Below are positions 2,659 to 32,342 of a DNA stretch of 37,633 bases, one piece after another (the stretch's first letter is position 1; the number at the start of each line of letters is the position of its first letter). The position numbers were made by a program, and so were the translations under genes. The notes below the pieces were generated by a model that searched no databases, was not told the DNA's origin, and was given only the letters and a program-made list of their open reading frames with translations. The DNA comes from an uncultured bacterium. Lineage in GTDB: Bacteria > Verrucomicrobiota > Kiritimatiellia > RFP12 > UBA1067. The stretch spans positions 1-37,633 of the forward strand of contig CACYCL010000137.1 in the NCBI GenBank assembly GCA_902772905.1, read 5' to 3'.

Positions 2659-5156
2659 GAGTCTTTGAGATAGCGAGGGAGATCGGCGTGAGCAGCGCCG
2701 ACGTTGTAAAGGCCGCCGAATCGGTTGGCATAGATGCCACCAACGCCATATCCGCCATTTGCGGTGATGATGCCAACCGCCTGCGCGCCGCGTTCGCCGG
2801 TGCGGACAGGGCTGCGCTTGAGGCTCGCCGAGCGGCGAAGGCGAAGATGGCCTCTGAAATGAACGCGGCGTTTTTTGTCGAGCAGAATGCCAAGCTTGCC
2901 GAGCATCAGCGCATTGCGAAGGAAATGGCAAAGGTGCGTCCTGCGCAGAAAGTGGTTCAGAAGCCTGTTGCAGCGTCCGCCGAGCCCACGAAGAATACGG
3001 CGGCTGCACCTGCTGCGGTTTCTGTGGCGGTGTCAAGCGGAAAGGAGGCGCAGACGAACGCCGCGCCGAAGATTCGCATGGCACCGGGGCACAAGCCGAA
3101 ACCGCTGCCTACGATATCCGCAGCCTCCACAGGCTTGACAGCAAAGGGCTTCAAGCCCATCCAACACGCTCGTCCTGTTGCTACCATATCTATTTCCGTC
3201 GCGGCGCCGCCCAAGCCGAAGCCGCCGAAGCCGGTTGCGTATGACGACGACGACGACCGCGGCAATCGCAAGGGCAAGAAAGATCGTGAGGGGCAGAAGA
3301 GCTTCGACAAGCGCGCGCAGCGCATTGCGCCGCCTGCGCCGCCGCCTAGCGGCCGCATCTCGGTCAACGAGGAGTCGCGTGAGATATCGATTCGCGGCGC
3401 CGTGATCGTGAAGGATCTTGCGGCAAAGCTGAACATAAAGCCGAATCGTCTCATCGCCGACTTGATGGGACTCAAGATCTTGGCGTCGATCAACCAGCGC
3501 GTCGAGCCTGACATTGCGACGAAGGTAGCAGAGAAGTACGGTTTCAAGGTTACGATCGAGCATGCCCGCGACAAGGCCACCGCAAAGCCTGTTCTGAAGG
3601 CCATTGACGCGGACGACATGATTCCGGACGATCCGCCGGAGACGCTTAAGCCCCGGCCGCCGGTAGTTACGTTCCTCGGCCACGTCGACCATGGCAAGAC
3701 GACGCTCATGGATTGGATCCGCAAGGAGCATGTTGCAGCCGGCGAGGCGGGCGGCATCACCCAGCAGATCAGTGCGTATCAGGTTGAGGTCGCTGGTCGA
3801 AAAATCACGTTCCTTGACACTCCTGGCCATGCCGCGTTCAGCGCGATGCGTGCGCGCGGTGCGCAGATCACAGACATTGCGGTTCTCATTATCGCCGCTG
3901 ACGACGGCATTATGCCGCAGACCGAGGAGTGCATAAAGGTTGCGCGGCAGACTGGCGTGCAGGTCATGGTGGCCATTACGAAGTGCGACAAGCCCACGGC
4001 CAACGTTGACCGCGTGAAGCAGCAGCTCCAGAAGGCTGGGCTCACGCCAGAGGACTGGGGCGGCGACATAATATGCTGCCCGGTGTCTGGCTTGACCGGC
4101 GAGGGCGTGGATTCGCTGCTGGAGAACATTCTTGTGCAGGCCGAGGTGCTTGAGCTGCAGGCTAATCCGAACCGCCGTGCGAATGGCTACGTGATCGAGT
4201 CCGAGCTGCAGCAGGGGCTTGGTCCATGTGCAACGCTTCTCGTCTCGGGCGGTACGCTCAAGGTAGGCGATGCGATTCTCATAGGCGAGCATTTCGGAAA
4301 GGTTCGCGCACTCATTGACGACCACGGTCGCCGCATACGCGAGGCAACTCCGGCGACTCCTGTCAAGTGCACTGGGCTTTCGGGCGTACCTGAAGCCGGC
4401 AGCGAGTTCCGCGTCATGCTTGACGAGAAGCGCGCGCGCGCACTTGCCGAGCAGACGGCGCAGGAGCGCAAGATCAGCGAGCTTGCCACGTCCAAGGCAG
4501 CCACGTTTGATTCGCTGATGAGCGCGATGGCGGCTGAGGGTCGCCGCGAACTCAATGTGATTGTCAAGTCTGACACGCAAGGCTCTCTTGAGGCGATTGT
4601 GCAGGCGCTTCAGGAGATCAAGAGCGAAAAGGTCGCCTTAAACATTATCGGCACCGGCACTGGAAACGTTTCGCTGACCGACGTCAAGTCCGCTGCGGCT
4701 GGAAAGGCTGTTGTTGTCGGATTTGACATCGGCAACGACGCCGGCGTTCAGAGCCAGGCGCGCCATGACGGCGTTAGAATCAACTCGTTCCGCATCATCT
4801 ACGAGCTAATCGACCACGTCAAGAACTGCATGCTCGACATGCTGCCGCCAGAGTACAAGGAGGTAGTCCTCGGACATGCCGAGGTCAAGGCCATATACGA
4901 CATCGGCAAGCTTGGCAAAATTGCCGGCTCCCAGATGCTCGATGGCAAGCTTGTCGCGAAGGAGAGATTCCGCATCAAGCGCGCGAAGTCCCAGATATGG
5001 GACGGCAAGGTGCAGACGTTGCGTCACTTCAAGGACGAGGTGAAGGAAGTTACAGGTCAACAGGAGTGCGGTGTTTGCTTCGCAGGCTACGAAGACTTCC
5101 AGGTTGGCGACACAATAGAGTGCTACATGCTTGAGGAGCTGCCGAGGAGTCTCTGA
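2655..5156 (+). CDS. infB: Translation initiation factor IF-2
   Basis: IF-2 is the GTPase that places initiator tRNA on the ribosome. The 833-residue protein begins with an IF2_N-type domain (1-50), then an Ala/Pro/Lys-rich, low-complexity linker (about 95-235) with an acidic DDDDD patch near 197-201. A second IF2_N-like domain follows (about 245-300), then the GTPase core. G1 is GHVDHGKT (342-349), G2 includes T369 and G3 is DTPGH (388-392). The C-terminal beta-barrel and tRNA-binding domains follow. The G4 motif reads TKCD (442-445) instead of the usual NKCD/NKxD, an unusual change at the guanine-specificity position. The start overlaps the nusA stop by 4 nt and GGAG lies 5 nt upstream; the stop overlaps the rbfA start by one base (TGATG), indicating translational coupling. 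Confidence 0.97.
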
Positions 5157-5506
5157 TGTCTGTAGATCGTCTTGAGCGCATAAATTCGCTGCTGAAACGC
5201 GTAATCGCTGAGAGCATGTTCTCAGTGATGCAGGGCGACACTGTTGCGCCAGGTCTCATCACCGTTACGGGCGTGGCGTGTGGGAAGGATCTGCGCGACG
5301 CCACGGTAAGGGTGTCTGTCTTCGGCGACGAGACACTCAAGGAGACTGCTTTGCACCACTTGGCCCACAATGCGCGCAAGTTCCAGGCGATCATAAACCG
5401 CGAGGTGAAGATGAAGTTCACCCCGCGGCTTACCTTCCAGCTCGACCGCTCGCTAGAACGGGGCGACGAGGTGCTGGCCATACTCGACAGATTGCCGCAG
5501 TCCTGA
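5156..5506 (+). CDS. rbfA: Ribosome-binding factor A
   Basis: RbfA is a small KH-fold factor needed for late 30S subunit maturation and 16S rRNA 5'-end processing. The 116-residue length is typical. The N terminus 'DRLERINSLLKRVIAE' is the first RbfA helix; the middle shows 'GLITVTGVACGKDLRDATV' and the end 'RGDEVLAILDRLPQS', in the place where the family usually carries its closing xxRxDxILxxL-like pattern. The start ATG overlaps the infB stop by one base. The next gene is a glycosyltransferase, whereas truB/ribF follow rbfA in many bacteria. Confidence 0.93.
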   Translation: MSVDRLERINSLLKRVIAESMFSVMQGDTVAPGLITVTGVACGKDLRDATVRVSVFGDETLKETALHHLAHNARKFQAIINREVKMKFTPRLTFQLDRSLERGDEVLAILDRLPQS

Positions 5507-5517
5507 CGTGTCTAGCA

Positions 5518-6597
5518 ATGGTTGTCTGGATACAGAACCCGTTCGACAACCTTCAAGGCGAGGGCTTCCGCAAGATGCGCTACGCGCTTATGGCCGATGC
5601 TTTCGTCCGCGCTGGTCATCGTGTAGTCATCTGGACCAGCGATTTTTCCCATGCAACGAAGTGCAGTCGGACGTTGCGCCGCACGTCTGATTCGTCGTCG
5701 AGTTGCATGTCCATTCAAATGGTGCGCACGATTCCGTATGCACGCAATGTCTCGCTGCGTCGCGTCGTCAGCCACATTGCATACGCAAGGCAATGGGAGA
5801 GAGATGCCGCAGGCGTTGTTGCCGACGGGCTTGCTCGTCCGTCGCTCATTGTCTCGTCGCTGCCAACTATCTCTGCCGCCGCAGCCGCCATTCGCATTGC
5901 TAGGCGATTCGGAGCGTCCGTTGCGGTCGATGTGCAGGACGCATGGCCGGAGACGTTCGAGCGCATTTTGCCGCGCTGGACCCTTTCGCCGCTCAGGAAA
6001 ATGGCACAACGAGTCTTTCGCGAGGCCGACATTGTTACTGGCGTATGCTCACGCTATCGTGAACTTGCCAATAGATCCGACTACGTAATGGCGTATCTCG
6101 GCATAGAACTTGGTCCGCGTCCCGCGCTGCCGTGCAGCAACGGTCCGCGCCGGCGCATTGCGTATGTCGGCGGACTCGGATGCTCATACGATCTAAAAAC
6201 CGTGCGCAGAGCCGCCGAAATGCTCGACATGGAACTGGCGGTTGCAGGGGGGAAGAACTATCTTGGGCAAGCTGAGCTAGAGTCGTTTCTTTCCGGATGC
6301 GATGTCGGCGTGGTTCCAATGTCGGCGGACAGCTGGGTTGGCCTTCCCAACAAGCTCTTCGACTACGCAAAAGCTGGTCTTCCAATTGTAAGTTCGCTTG
6401 GCGGTGAGTCTGCGGAGTTGATCGCCAAATACGCATGCGGTGCAACATACAAAGTCGGAGACGTGGATTCATTGTCAAATGCCATCCGCAGTGCGCTTGC
6501 TTGCGAGGCTGGCGCGTCGCGGCGCATGTGCGAAGCGGAGTTTGACGCAACACGGATATATGACTCGTATGTGCGAACATTGGAATCACGCATATAG
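5518..6597 (+). CDS. GT-B fold glycosyltransferase, GT4-like
   Basis: This is probably a glycosyltransferase using a nucleotide sugar to extend an envelope glycan; donor and acceptor cannot be read from the sequence. The protein has 359 residues. The N-terminal half holds a Rossmann-like acceptor domain (WIQNPFDNLQGEGFRKMRYA, then 'FVRAGHRVVIWTSDF'). The C-terminal half has the donor-site pattern of GT4 enzymes: 'IAYVGGLGCSYDLKT', 'GCDVGVVPMSADSW' and, from residue 276, 'LPNKLFDYAKAGLPIVSS'. The open frame extends upstream into rbfA, but the homology and the 11-nt gap after rbfA favour the ATG at 5518. No clear Shine-Dalgarno sequence is visible, so translation may be coupled to rbfA. Confidence 0.8.
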   Translation: MVVWIQNPFDNLQGEGFRKMRYALMADAFVRAGHRVVIWTSDFSHATKCSRTLRRTSDSSSSCMSIQMVRTIPYARNVSLRRVVSHIAYARQWERDAAGVVADGLARPSLIVSSLPTISAAAAAIRIARRFGASVAVDVQDAWPETFERILPRWTLSPLRKMAQRVFREADIVTGVCSRYRELANRSDYVMAYLGIELGPRPALPCSNGPRRRIAYVGGLGCSYDLKTVRRAAEMLDMELAVAGGKNYLGQAELESFLSGCDVGVVPMSADSWVGLPNKLFDYAKAGLPIVSSLGGESAELIAKYACGATYKVGDVDSLSNAIRSALACEAGASRRMCEAEFDATRIYDSYVRTLESRI

Positions 6598-6648
6598 GCC
6601 TACAGTGACGAAATGGCTTTGTGCACGGGCAAGAAAGAGATGGATTTC

Positions 6649-7671
6649 ATGGCGATGATGCGTACGGTCATACTGGCGGCGGGGGACTTCCCGCGGAAAG
6701 GTGGCGAGCCGTACAGGCTCCTTGCCTCGGCGCGTTTCGTTGTTGCCTGCGACAGCGCGGCGGACGCATACCGCCGTGAGTTCGGTCGCTGGCCCGATGC
6801 AATCGTGGGCGACTTAGATAGCGTATCCATCGCCGCGCATGGTCGTGCCGTGCGCATTTCGGATCAGTCCACGAACGACCTCTCCAAGGCGATTGCGTGG
6901 TGTCATGGGCATGATTGTGGCGATCTGGTGATTCTTGGCGCTACGGGGAAGCGCGAGGACCACACGATCGGCAATGTGTTTCGCGCCCTGGATGCTGGTG
7001 TTCGAGTGGTCACTGAGTTTGGCGAATTCCTTCCTGTGCGTGGTACTCTCAAGTTTAGAACGTGGAAAGGCGCGGGCGTGTCTGTATTTGTGATGGATCC
7101 GCTTGCGAAGATGTCGTCGCGTGGGCTCAAGTGGAAGCTTGATGGTGTGCGCTTCGCAAACGCTTGGTGCGCAACGCTGAACCGTGCGTCGTCAGAAAAT
7201 GTCGCTGTCACCAGTGACCGCGCCGCTTTTGTTTACGTAGAGCGAAATCCAAATGCCACGCGCGCCGCTGTGTCGCTAGGATCAAATCTCGGCAACCGCG
7301 CGGCGAACCTGAAAATGGCGCTTGCGGCGCTTTCGCGCCTTCCGCAGACGCGTATCCTTGATGCAAGCTCTGTAGTCGAAACCAATCCGGTTGGAGTTCC
7401 GTGCGAATTCGCCTCGCTGAAGTTTCTCAATCAGGCGGCTCTGTTTGAGACGGAATTAGATGCTTGGGAGTTCTCGCGGGCCATGCATGGCATCGAGGAC
7501 AGGATGGGGCGTGTTCGCACCGTTCGCAACGGCCCTCGCGTGATAGATATTGATCTAATCGACTTTGGAGGACGGAAGATGAAGACGAGCGAGTTGACGT
7601 TGCCGCACCCGAGAGCGGCGAGACGCGATTTCGTAATGCGTCCGTTGCGTGAACTGGGGGTGGAGCTTTGA
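6649..7671 (+). CDS. Bifunctional thiamine pyrophosphokinase / HPPK fusion
   Basis: Two complete cytoplasmic pyrophosphokinases are joined in one 340-residue chain. Residues 1 to about 195 are thiamine pyrophosphokinase (thiamine to thiamine diphosphate): CDSAAD (34-39), GDLDS (54-58), DQSTND (72-77) and 'GATGKREDHTIGN' are its metal-, ATP- and thiamine-site motifs. Residues about 204-340 are 6-hydroxymethyl-7,8-dihydropterin pyrophosphokinase (FolK, folate pathway): 'AVSLGSNLGNRAANL', 'ETNPVG' and 'RNGPRVIDIDLI' with the catalytic Asp pair at 300/302. Both enzymes move the beta-gamma pyrophosphate of ATP to an alcohol. I chose the ATG at 6649, 8 nt after AAAGAGA; in-frame ATGs at 6613, 6640, 6655 and 6658 are alternatives. 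The stop overlaps the murI start. Confidence 0.9.
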   Translation: MAMMRTVILAAGDFPRKGGEPYRLLASARFVVACDSAADAYRREFGRWPDAIVGDLDSVSIAAHGRAVRISDQSTNDLSKAIAWCHGHDCGDLVILGATGKREDHTIGNVFRALDAGVRVVTEFGEFLPVRGTLKFRTWKGAGVSVFVMDPLAKMSSRGLKWKLDGVRFANAWCATLNRASSENVAVTSDRAAFVYVERNPNATRAAVSLGSNLGNRAANLKMALAALSRLPQTRILDASSVVETNPVGVPCEFASLKFLNQAALFETELDAWEFSRAMHGIEDRMGRVRTVRNGPRVIDIDLIDFGGRKMKTSELTLPHPRAARRDFVMRPLRELGVEL

Positions 7672-29615: not shown

Positions 29616-30050
29616 CTACTTCTTCTCTGGAAGAATCAGGCACTGGGTGCGTATTTCGTGGCGCTTCACCAGGAAGAGGCTCCATGCATAGCTGTCGTCC
29701 TCGGTGGTCTTCAGCTGGGTGATGCGATGTGAACCTGCGACGTCAAGGGCGTGGTTGAGCGAGACGAGGTTGTTGTCGAGCGTCGCCTCGTCGGAGAAGA
29801 ATACCACGTTGTACCTGTCTTCTATTCCCTCATCGCCGCTGCCTTCCGTCCACGGACGTCCTGAGCAGAACGGAATGCAGCCCAGAATCTTGTACGAGAA
29901 GTTCTGAGTCACGAAGGAGGCGACTGGTACTTCGTCGTCGTTTATGGTGATGGGCGAATTCCACTTCGCGATTTCTGAGTACGAGCTGCAGCCCGCGAAT
30001 GCTAGGGCGGACAACGACAGCACTGCAATGGTCTTTGCGCTGATATTCAT
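29616..30050 (-). CDS. Lipoprotein of unknown function, related to its upstream neighbour
   Basis: The 144-residue product has a lipoprotein signal (MNISAKTIAVLSLSALAFAG) with Cys21 in the lipobox AFAGC. The mature part is a small alpha/beta domain without a recognised family. 'ILGCIPFCSGRPW' parallels 'LFWCIPLACGDLRW' in the next lipoprotein, and both continue with a 'FFSDEATLDN'/'FFQDQVGFDE' segment and a short helix, so the two are likely distant paralogues. It is the second gene of a two-gene - strand operon: 15 nt separate it from its neighbour and AAGGAG lies 8 nt before the ATG. It runs into the shared terminator. The cell location is probably the periplasmic face of the inner or outer membrane. 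Confidence 0.8.
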   Translation of the reverse strand: MNISAKTIAVLSLSALAFAGCSSYSEIAKWNSPITINDDEVPVASFVTQNFSYKILGCIPFCSGRPWTEGSGDEGIEDRYNVVFFSDEATLDNNLVSLNHALDVAGSHRITQLKTTEDDSYAWSLFLVKRHEIRTQCLILPEKK

Positions 30051-30065
30051 TGTTTTATCTCCTTC

Positions 30066-30536
30066 TTACTTTGCCTTTGCCGTGCGCGGCACGAGAACTG
30101 CGGAAACGCCCATCTGCGACGAGCCGAAGCATGTGCCTATCAGGCCGCCCCAGCTGACATCCACGTAGAAGCCGTCTGAATCGTTGAAATACACGTCGGC
30201 AAGGTCGCAGTTGCGGCTATTGGCGATCTTCTGGAGCGCTGTCTGGAGTTCGTCGAAGCCGACCTGATCCTGAAAGAACGCCGTGCCGCCGAGGATGTCG
30301 TCGGTCGCGCTGTCCCAGCGCAGGTCGCCGCAGGCGAGCGGAATGCACCAGAACAAATTGTAGCCGGACGTTGTTATCGTGACTTGCTGACCGGCCTCGG
30401 CGCCTTTTGCGCCCTTGATTGCGACGTTCTTCAGCGTTCCAGGCAATGAATAATTCACCGTGGCGCATCCTGTGAGCACTGCGGCAATCAGCGCTGCTGC
30501 TCCTGCGAGAGCCGGTCTTGCTGTTTTTGCATTCAT
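30066..30536 (-). CDS. Lipoprotein of unknown function, first gene of the - strand pair
   Basis: The 156-residue product starts with a signal peptide rich in Ala and Cys24 in the lipobox VLTGC. The mature sequence contains 'QQVTITTSGYNLFWCIPLA', 'GGTAFFQDQVGFDELQTALQ' and 'CDLADVYFNDSDGFYVDVS'. No catalytic motif is seen and I cannot name a family. The ATG (bases 30534-30536) has AAAGGA 9 nt upstream, and a TATACT promoter lies about 35 nt upstream; an in-frame ATG at 30581 overlaps that promoter and is rejected. It is transcribed divergently from the nitrilase-GDPD gene, 120 nt away. Confidence 0.8.
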   Translation of the reverse strand: MNAKTARPALAGAAALIAAVLTGCATVNYSLPGTLKNVAIKGAKGAEAGQQVTITTSGYNLFWCIPLACGDLRWDSATDDILGGTAFFQDQVGFDELQTALQKIANSRNCDLADVYFNDSDGFYVDVSWGGLIGTCFGSSQMGVSAVLVPRTAKAK

Positions 30537-30571
30537 AATGAGTTTCCTTTCAGAGGTTTTGATTGCAGGGT

Positions 30572-30580
30572 AGTATACCA
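30572..30580 (-). promoter_or_regulatory. Extended -10 promoter of the lipoprotein pair
   Basis: Read on the - strand, TGGTATACT (hexamer at 30577-30572) is a TGn-extended -10. Predicted start is about 30565, leaving a leader of about 29 nt with AAAGGA. The 13-mer TTTTGGTATACTA is repeated in the divergent promoter at 30638-30650. Confidence 0.65.
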
Positions 30581-30640
30581 AAAAATCGGTAACGTGGTTT
30601 GGGGCTTGTGGATAATCATTAGGTAAGAGGCGGCGGATTT

Positions 30641-30656: not shown

Positions 30657-32342
30657 ATGAAAGAGCAATCGAGAAAAATAGTCCTGGCGGGTGCTGTCGC
30701 CTGTCTTGCGTCCATGACGGCGTTCTGCGCGCCGATGAAGTTCTGCGTCCTGCAGCCGCCATTTGCGCTTGATCCGGCGAATGTCGGCGCAAGCATCCAA
30801 TGGGAGCTTGACGCCCTTGCTAAGTGCGACGAGAGCCTTGACGTGATCGTTCTTCCTGAGGGAAGCGACCGTCAGGGCAAGGCCGCCTCGCGTGAACAGG
30901 CCATAGCCACTGCAAAGGACATTGGCGCGAATGTGATCGCCGCCTGCGCGGAGACCGCGAAGCGGTGCAACGCCGTCGTGTTCGTGAACGCCTACGACTT
31001 CTCGCACGGCGAAAACCCGCGCAACACGACGTTCGCCTTCGACCGTTCGGGCGCGCTCGTCGGCAAGTACGACAAGCGGCATCTTACGATGGGCGAGTGG
31101 AAGCGCTGGCACTACGACTCCAGCTACATGTGGGAATGGAGCGCGCCGGAGGTGATGACGATAGACGGAGTGAAGTACGCCTTCCTCACCTGCTACGACT
31201 TCTACTACTACGAGGCTCTGGCCAACATAGCGCGGTACAAGCCCGACGTGATCATTGGCTGCTCGCACCAGCGCAGCGATTCTCATTTGGCCCTGGACTT
31301 CTTCGGGCGCTTCATCGCATACAACACGGGCGCGTATCTTGTGCGTTCGTCTGTCAGCATGGGCAAGGATTCGCCTGTAGGCGGCGGCTCGATGATCGTT
31401 GCGCCTTCCGGCGAGATGCTGGGCGACCTCAAGAGCCGCGTCGGAACGCTCACGGTCGAGTTCGACCCGCACGAGAAGTTCCTAAAGCCGAAGGGCTACG
31501 GCGGAGCGATAGGGCTTCACTCCGACTACGTAGATATCGGCAGGCGCCCGTGGCAGTACCGTCCCGCCGGAAGCGCAATAGTGCCTGGCTTCGAGAACGC
31601 GCCCGCGAAGCGGCTCTGTGCGCACCGTGGCTTCTCGACGATTGCGCCAGAGAACAGCCTCGCCGCGTTTGGTTCCGCTGTCGCGCTGGGCGCATCGGAG
31701 ATAGAATTCGATCTTTGGTGGACGAAGGACGGCGAGATTGTGTCCATACACGATTCGACCCTGAACCGGGTCTCCGACGGAAATGGGCGTGTGTTCGACC
31801 ATACGTACGAAGAGCTTCTCAAGCTTGACTTCGGCATCAAGACGGGGCCGCACTTCAAGGGCATGAAGATACTCAAGTTCGAGGACATTCTGAGGAAGCT
31901 TTCGAGCCATGTCATAATGAACATCCACATCAAGGACATTGGCAAGGCGTGGGACGAGGCGCTCGCCAAGAAGGTCGTCAGCCTCATCGACGCCTACGAT
32001 GCGCGGCGGCACGTCTACTTCATGACGTCGAACGGCGAAATCCAGGACCAGTTCGCGCGGCTTGCGCCGGACATCCCACGCTGCATGGGCAATGGCGGGC
32101 AGGACAACAAGAGCCATCCCGACATCGTGGATCATGCGCTGAAGCACAAGTGCCAGATGGTTCAGCTCTTCAAGCCGTACTTCGACCAGTCTCTCATAGA
32201 CCGCGCACACGCCGCCGGGCTGCGCGTCAATGTGTTCTGGTCGGACGATCCGGAAGAGGCTAAGAAGTTCCTGGAGATGGGTGTTGACACCATACTGACG
32301 AACGACTACCAGCCGATCGCCGCCGCAACCGGCTTGAAGTAG
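30657..32342 (+). CDS. Secreted nitrilase-superfamily / glycerophosphodiester phosphodiesterase fusion
   Basis: The 561-residue protein has a signal peptide (about 1-25, ending TAFCAP) and two enzyme domains. Residues about 27-300 are a carbon-nitrogen hydrolase with its Glu-Lys-Cys triad: E68 in 'VLPEGS', K140 in 'GKYDKRHL' and C179 in 'LTCYDFYYYE'. Residues about 318-561 are a GDPD-type TIM barrel: 'CAHRGFSTIAPENSLAAF' (H323, R324), E350/D352 in 'EIEFDLWW', H365 in 'SIHDSTLNRVSDGNG' and the closing 'GVDTILTNDYQP'. One chain could cleave an amide and a phosphodiester of the same lipid or wall-polymer substrate; this is inference. The ATG at 30657 is set by the leaderless promoter. The gene stands alone between - strand lipoproteins and serS. 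Confidence 0.9.
   Translation: MKEQSRKIVLAGAVACLASMTAFCAPMKFCVLQPPFALDPANVGASIQWELDALAKCDESLDVIVLPEGSDRQGKAASREQAIATAKDIGANVIAACAETAKRCNAVVFVNAYDFSHGENPRNTTFAFDRSGALVGKYDKRHLTMGEWKRWHYDSSYMWEWSAPEVMTIDGVKYAFLTCYDFYYYEALANIARYKPDVIIGCSHQRSDSHLALDFFGRFIAYNTGAYLVRSSVSMGKDSPVGGGSMIVAPSGEMLGDLKSRVGTLTVEFDPHEKFLKPKGYGGAIGLHSDYVDIGRRPWQYRPAGSAIVPGFENAPAKRLCAHRGFSTIAPENSLAAFGSAVALGASEIEFDLWWTKDGEIVSIHDSTLNRVSDGNGRVFDHTYEELLKLDFGIKTGPHFKGMKILKFEDILRKLSSHVIMNIHIKDIGKAWDEALAKKVVSLIDAYDARRHVYFMTSNGEIQDQFARLAPDIPRCMGNGGQDNKSHPDIVDHALKHKCQMVQLFKPYFDQSLIDRAHAAGLRVNVFWSDDPEEAKKFLEMGVDTILTNDYQPIAAATGLK

Follow-up and report, generated by a model that had tools for sequence, protein, structure and literature searches.

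The window considered here, a stretch of 37,633 nucleotides, is one whole contig of a 2.36-Mb draft metagenome genome (205 contigs, 89.7% complete). It contains an intact open reading frame in which a CN_hydrolase (nitrilase) domain and a GDPD domain are joined behind a signal-peptide-like N-terminus (Table 1). The Pfam model PF00795 (CN_hydrolase) matches residues 55-271 with an E value of 9.3e-20 (71.5 bits versus a cut-off of 23.2), and PF03009 (GDPD) matches residues 323-550 with an E value of 9.7e-38 (131.1 bits versus a cut-off of 23.6). The N-terminus, MKEQSRKIVLAGAVACLASMTAFCA, is signal-peptide-like based on its hydropathy and comparison with relatives. Among the NCBIfam models, none reaches its cut-off with the window protein. 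The scores were 21.5 bits versus 355 for the deaminated glutathione amidase (NF033621), 27.2 versus 132.9 for the apolipoprotein N-acyltransferase Lnt (TIGR00546), 131.2 versus 264 for the UgpQ equivalog (NF006989), and 69 versus 450 for the lysophosphatidylglycerol phospholipase D (NF053857).

The neighboring genes in the window encode lipoprotein-like ORFs, a Gfo/Idh/MocA protein, a DUF4432 protein, a GH95 protein and a UDP-galactopyranose mutase, and they suggest no pathway. Two of the small lipoprotein-like ORFs, at 29616-30050 (-) and 30066-30581 (-), are just upstream of the fusion on the opposite strand, and neither has a Pfam match above cut-off.

Table 1. The nitrilase-GDPD fusion gene and its features, with positions in the window.
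Feature	Position	Strand	Basis
Nitrilase-GDPD fusion gene, complete, 561 aa	30657..32342	+	ORF from ATG 30657 to stop at 32342, Pfam
Signal-peptide-like N-terminus, residues 1-25	30657..30731	+	Hydropathy and relatives
M27-K28, after the signal-like segment, start of signal-less relatives			Sequence comparison
Nitrilase (CN_hydrolase) domain, residues 27-271	30735..31469	+	Pfam, model, fold match
E68, catalytic Glu	30858..30860	+	Alignments
K140, catalytic Lys	31074..31076	+	Alignments
E147, second Glu of nitrilase site, invariant, role inferred	31095..31097	+	Alignments
C179, nucleophile	31191..31193	+	Alignments
Conserved interdomain joint, residues 272-310, with GRRPWxYRPxG motif	31470..31586	+	Alignments, model
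GDPD domain, residues 323-550	31623..32306	+	Pfam, fold match
H323-R324	31623..31628	+	Alignments
E350 and D352, metal ligands	31704..31712	+	Alignments
H365, second catalytic His	31749..31751	+	Alignments
H424, NIHIK versus NIEIK, where solved GDPDs have the third metal-binding Glu	31926..31928	+	Alignments

Distribution of the fusion and of its separate halves

When 191 related genomes were searched with the whole protein, full-length matches were found elsewhere in the genus, family and order, and the 20 full-length relatives that were aligned are 51-82% identical to the window protein. A search of the same genomes with the nitrilase half yielded 27 loci of at least 50% identity, the window counted, and all 27 are fused in-frame to a GDPD. 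Five further matches were weak, at 28-34% identity. A search of the GTDB contig collection gave 387 stretches that encode a relative. Of these, the best 80 all span both domains, one being truncated where its contig starts and another at the opposite end. These 80 come from Kiritimatiellae, Bacteroidales and Clostridia, and all are MAGs or uncultured bacteria (45 RGIG, 18 SIG, 8 RUG and 9 other). The RGIG relatives are from gut sites of goat, sheep, deer, yak, buffalo and cattle. The named records nearest to the window fusion are Verrucomicrobia/Kiritimatiellae MAGs and one uncultured bacterium.

In the family to which the Oscillospiraceae MAG G194 belongs, matches occur in 52 of 196 genomes and include 61 loci with at least 40% identity. 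Fifty-nine of these are fused or readable as fused, and the other two end with the contig before a GDPD is visible. The nitrilase frame is short in seven of the 61 loci: three have a frame break or stop with the GDPD still following, two are cut by the contig end yet show the GDPD, and two are cut before it. For the frame break or in-frame stop in the Clostridia loci L157, L158 and L159, decay and assembly error are both possible. Among 150 genomes from the family that includes the Lachnospiraceae MAG G200, 3 carry the gene, always fused. When 288 genomes of the class were searched with a profile, one extra, divergent fusion, G555, was found in another family. Several genomes match the fusion at two to four loci, and one Clostridia genome carries two nitrilase-GDPD fusion genes in tandem (L164, 2527-4152 and 4175-5806, + strand). 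While 423 plasmid and 305 phage records match, none covers 80% of the fusion query. The matches listed among viral predicted structures are separate GDPD or CN-hydrolase proteins, judged by name and length.

Of the standalone nitrilases found, the nearest, at 34-35% identity, are L153, L154 and L155, all Clostridia genes. Identity to L153 is 62% for L154 and 64% for L155, and this type was found in only those three of 196 genomes. In L154, the nitrilase gene (4911-5714) is followed 209 bases downstream by a separate GDPD gene on the same strand (5923-6750, +; Pfam 3.5e-21). A GDSL-type hydrolase gene is directly downstream in L153, and L155 is adjoined by neither a GDPD nor a GDSL-type hydrolase gene. 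Close relatives of the GDPD half occur alone in five Kiritimatiellae genomes (L037, L038/L034, L039, L040 and L041), so the two activities are separable. The L039 gene (5456-6268, -) starts with MKFTLIQPPFD and runs straight into the GDPD, while the fusion starts with MKFCVLQPPF, identical at 7 of 10 positions. By inspection, this standalone GDPD is apparently the fusion minus its nitrilase domain.

The original prediction had named separate genes for the two halves in close relatives, with the join here an assembly error, as a finding that would overturn it. Although the window belongs to a draft of 205 contigs, the chance of an assembly or annotation artefact is negligible, as the identical join is found at the identical position in many independent assemblies. 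Separate genes in close relatives were likewise rejected: a nitrilase half on its own was found in no close relative, and standalone nitrilase genes were found only among the relatives of 34-35% identity. The full-length relatives at 51-82% identity, together with an AlphaFold2 model with a pLDDT of 93.7 and a pTM of 0.86, place the fusion far above chance.

Active sites and predicted structure

Nitrilase-superfamily amidases form a thioester at a Cys residue and release an amine, and GDPDs cut glycerophosphodiesters using two His residues and a metal. Both sites were compared in an alignment of 87 fusions, comprising the window, the best 80 of the 387 loci and six signal-less Kiritimatiellae, some of which are near copies. 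K140, E147, C179, H323, R324, E350, D352, H365 and H424 are each present in all 87. E68 is present in 86, and the remaining row is truncated with a gap at this position. The residues named in the original prediction are also invariant in a 21-row alignment of the window and 20 relatives. The Glu68-Lys140-Cys179 nitrilase triad is confirmed in this way, with each residue where it had been placed. E147, a second Glu of the nitrilase site, is also invariant and was missing from the prediction. Based on the sequence and the model, the N-terminal half is predicted to be a nitrilase-superfamily amidase with a complete Glu-Lys-Cys site and Glu147.

The GDPD site had also been described as complete. 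H323/R324, E350/D352 and H365 are indeed present and invariant, but H424 replaces a Glu, so the site is non-classical. The corresponding position is Glu in the solved GDPDs that were aligned (NIEIK in 2pz0 and 2otd, NLELK in 3qvq and YIETK in 5t91); this Glu is the third metal ligand. With His in 87 of 87 fusions, the third ligand departs from the Glu-Asp-Glu metal site of the classical GlpQ/UgpQ type. His is also found at this position in the standalone or differently built proteins L002, L034, L035, L036, L037, L039, L041, L143 and L144, as well as in L007 by a doubtful local alignment. Other GDPDs have Asp (L040) or Glu (L004, L005, L006, L147 and L148), and L003 was not alignable here. Because His is present in GDPDs outside the fusion, it marks a GDPD subfamily that is wider than the fusion. 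The C-terminal half is predicted to be a GDPD-fold phosphodiesterase of this subfamily with His in the metal site.

The Kiritimatiellae relatives possess many GDPD paralogues per genome, some in very long open frames. Another GDPD fusion, L036 (1426-3384, +), has a His-type GDPD followed by a BNR sialidase-like domain. In the window's own genome, L002 (568-2265, +) combines a metallophosphatase and a GDPD in one protein, with Cys at the R324 position and His at the metal position.

A first AlphaFold2 model built from 21 sequences had a pLDDT of 84.4 and a pTM of 0.54. With 66 sequences, these values rose to 93.7 and 0.86, which predicts a defined packing of the two domains. Together, the conserved joint and the high pTM suggest a specific domain arrangement. 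The C-terminal part of the model matches 2pz0 with a Z of 32.2 (rmsd 1.9 over 238 residues, 29% identity). The N-terminal part matches NitFhit (1ems; Z 27.8, with a listed range that runs beyond the domain), and, over about 250 residues, the Pyrococcus horikoshii amidase 6ypa (Z 27.6) and mouse Nit2 (2w1v; Z 26.4). These nitrilase fold matches are within about 2 Z of one another, and no single branch stands out.

Signal peptide and gene neighborhood

Among the best 80 of the 387 loci, a signal-peptide-like segment is present in 23 of 23 intact loci from Kiritimatiellae f1 and Bacteroidales; a 24th, L070, is truncated and was left out of the count. The segment is absent from 55 of the 56 Clostridia loci, 39 of which have a stop within 15 codons upstream. 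The sole Clostridia locus with a hydrophobic stretch in an open upstream frame, L087, is at a contig edge and is ambiguous. The Clostridia proteins start at the MK that corresponds to M27-K28 of the window protein. A start near this MK and no hydrophobic stretch are likewise seen in six copies from Kiritimatiellae f4/f6 and in the one from f7. Thus, the original prediction of two hydrolase sites in one polypeptide with a signal peptide is supported for the window's lineage, but secretion is not a general trait: it holds for Kiritimatiellae f1 and Bacteroidales and not for the Clostridia or Kiritimatiellae f4, f6 and f7.

A tree of 70 rows was built after removing 18 of the 80 loci that were truncated or near copies of others; it included four of the six f4/f6 loci. 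All Gram-negative copies group in a single clade (SH-aLRT 100) that is nested in the Clostridia when rooted on L156. The root rests on this single long outgroup row, so the direction from Clostridia to Gram-negatives is likely, not shown. The signal-peptide state, assigned by group, needs two changes on this tree, on a plain reading either one gain with a later loss or two gains. It seems likely that a cytosolic Clostridia enzyme reached Gram-negative gut bacteria and acquired a signal peptide before the old start. Export appears to be a trait of the lineage and not part of the design of the fusion.

For the most part, the genes around the fusion are random in kind. An SDF symporter gene (PF00375) is directly upstream of the fusion in 6 of 33 immediate neighbors, representing four of five Bacteroidales and two Kiritimatiellae, with gaps of -16 to +7 bases. 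The Pfam scans covered 33 of 38 upstream and 32 of 36 downstream proteins, the excluded proteins being mostly short ORFs plus the 488-aa neighbor in L065. The gene caller failed to place the fusion in 14 loci, so these counts are lower bounds. Other families recur in at most three members among the 25 commonest families per sample. None of the five symporters tested reaches the cut-off of any curated model. Four are nearest to the serine/threonine transporter SstT, with 74-88 bits versus a cut-off of 308, and the fifth has no match at 1e-20. In the divergent fusion G555, genes for an ABC permease (PF02653) and ATPase (PF00005) are directly upstream on the same strand. In the window and most relatives of its family, no transporter gene adjoins the fusion. 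No conserved operon was found in the Clostridia, either from sequence clusters or from Pfam searches of 196 neighbors. This set comprised 197 proteins, of which one of 1898 aa was excluded and the rest were divided into two samples of 98. No family occurs in more than three of 98 proteins in either half-sample (25 commonest families each), so no pathway is indicated. The symporter and ABC importer contexts, although few, appear to point to uptake of a small molecule over attack on lipid or wall.

Possible function and relation to known systems

The best explanation, which is offered tentatively, is that the fusion encodes a rigid two-domain, two-site catabolic hydrolase that would act sequentially on one small scavenged substrate containing both bonds. 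The most likely class of candidate substrate is an imported or periplasmic N-acylated glycerophosphodiester. Both sites would act in turn on glycerol-phosphate-O-X-NH-CO-R, where X may be ethanolamine, serine or similar. Glycerol phosphate would be released by the GDPD half and the amide opened by the nitrilase half, leaving the cell with G3P, an amino compound and an acid. In the Clostridia, cleavage would take place in the cytosol after import of the molecule. In Kiritimatiellae f1 and Bacteroidales, a signal peptide placed before the old start codon would have moved the enzyme to the periplasm, and an inner-membrane symporter could take up a product. This two-step reading draws on the invariance of both catalytic sets in the 87 fusions, the pTM of 0.86 and the GDPD gene downstream of the distant standalone nitrilase in L154. 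The uptake part draws on the SDF symporter or ABC genes directly upstream in a few genomes. Moreover, the retention of both sites together across three phyla fits successive attack on one substrate. This part of the original prediction is upheld, but the exported lipid or wall polymer that it proposed as the target is unlikely.

A possible but somewhat doubtful alternative is that two metabolically linked, chemically independent hydrolases were joined for co-expression. The nitrilase would clear an amide, as Nit1 clears deaminated glutathione, a damaged metabolite, and the GDPD would clear ordinary glycerophosphodiesters. The GDPD half does occur alone, most copies have no uptake or pathway neighbors, and for G555, the best-scoring nitrilase model of the nitrilase half is the deaminated glutathione amidase (4.7e-19), although far below the cut-off. 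However, the close nitrilase half is never found alone (27 of 27 loci are fused, and 59 of 61 are fused or readable as fused, with two cut by the contig), and a specific arrangement of the domains is suggested by the conserved joint and the high pTM.

It is rather unlikely that the C-terminal half is no longer a glycerophosphodiesterase and that the change from Glu to His created another phosphodiesterase or lyase, whose substrate may have no glycerol. Phospholipase D-type members of the GDPD fold have changed ligands, and the constancy of H424 in the fusions and in standalone proteins, while other GDPDs keep Glu, would be expected from such a change. Nevertheless, the other catalytic residues and the whole fold are those of a GDPD, and His is able to bind metal.

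Attack by a secreted form on exported lipids or wall polymer, as originally proposed, is improbable. It is consistent with the signal-peptide-like segment in the window's family and Bacteroidales, but the signal-less Clostridia and Kiritimatiellae f4, f6 and f7 copies share the same sites, so such an attack is unlikely as the common function.

A more specific form of the two-step reading, to which very little probability is given, is that the enzyme is dedicated to the gamma-glutamyl-ethanolamine-phosphoglycerol left by digestion of eukaryotic eEF1A. This fragment is a candidate because it has exactly one glycerophosphodiester and one glutamate gamma-amide. Nit1 and Nit2, fold neighbors of the nitrilase half, cleave gamma-amides of C5 dicarboxylates. 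Glycerol phosphate would come from the action of the GDPD half, and glutamate and ethanolamine from that of the nitrilase half, with plant, host and perhaps protozoal eEF1A as the source in herbivore guts. An SstT-like symporter, rather than one of the glutamate type, would argue slightly against this substrate. A closely related candidate may be a deacylated N-acyl or glycyl-serine phospholipid from other gut bacteria. In excerpts of one report (PMC2830473), ethanolamine-phosphoglycerol is attached to a glutamate of eEF1A in mammals, plants and trypanosomes, and is given as absent in bacteria and reported absent in Saccharomyces cerevisiae. The same excerpts describe an eEF1A fragment that loses glycerol phosphate, leaving a Glu modified with NH-CH=CH2.

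Overall, the family fits best as a new two-domain combination that draws on two known superfamilies and has a variant metal site in its GDPD. The original prediction knew of no common fusion of these domains. Among the titles listed from the open-licence literature, none concerned the fusion, weak evidence given that scope, but the fusion is common in gut metagenome genomes. It represents a two-activity enzyme common to many uncultured herbivore-gut bacteria, in which the GDPD metal site is of the His variant. The fixed fusion hints at one natural molecule with both bonds, the identity of which would reveal a nutrient niche of the rumen and hindgut. In addition, it is a likely case of a cytosolic enzyme given a signal peptide on reaching Gram-negative hosts.

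Compared with the UgpQ/GlpQ-type GDPD of T. tengcongensis (2pz0), the fusion shares the fold, HR, ExD and second His, but has His for the third metal-ligand Glu and a nitrilase domain in front. With the Nit/NitFhit-like amidases (1ems, PH0642 and mouse Nit2), it shares the fold and the Glu-Lys-Cys site. Identity to these is only 15-17%, and the fusion differs in the GDPD, an invariant QRxD after the Cys strand and, in some lineages, the signal peptide. Pantetheinase is secreted and, like the exported forms, is a nitrilase-superfamily amidase; the sequence match is weak (E 0.009), and to our knowledge it has no GDPD domain. NitFhit is described in D. melanogaster and C. elegans in excerpts of PMC9913352. 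Both NitFhit and the fusion combine a nitrilase-superfamily enzyme with a phosphate-bond hydrolase, but the partner in NitFhit is an Fhit domain and not a GDPD.
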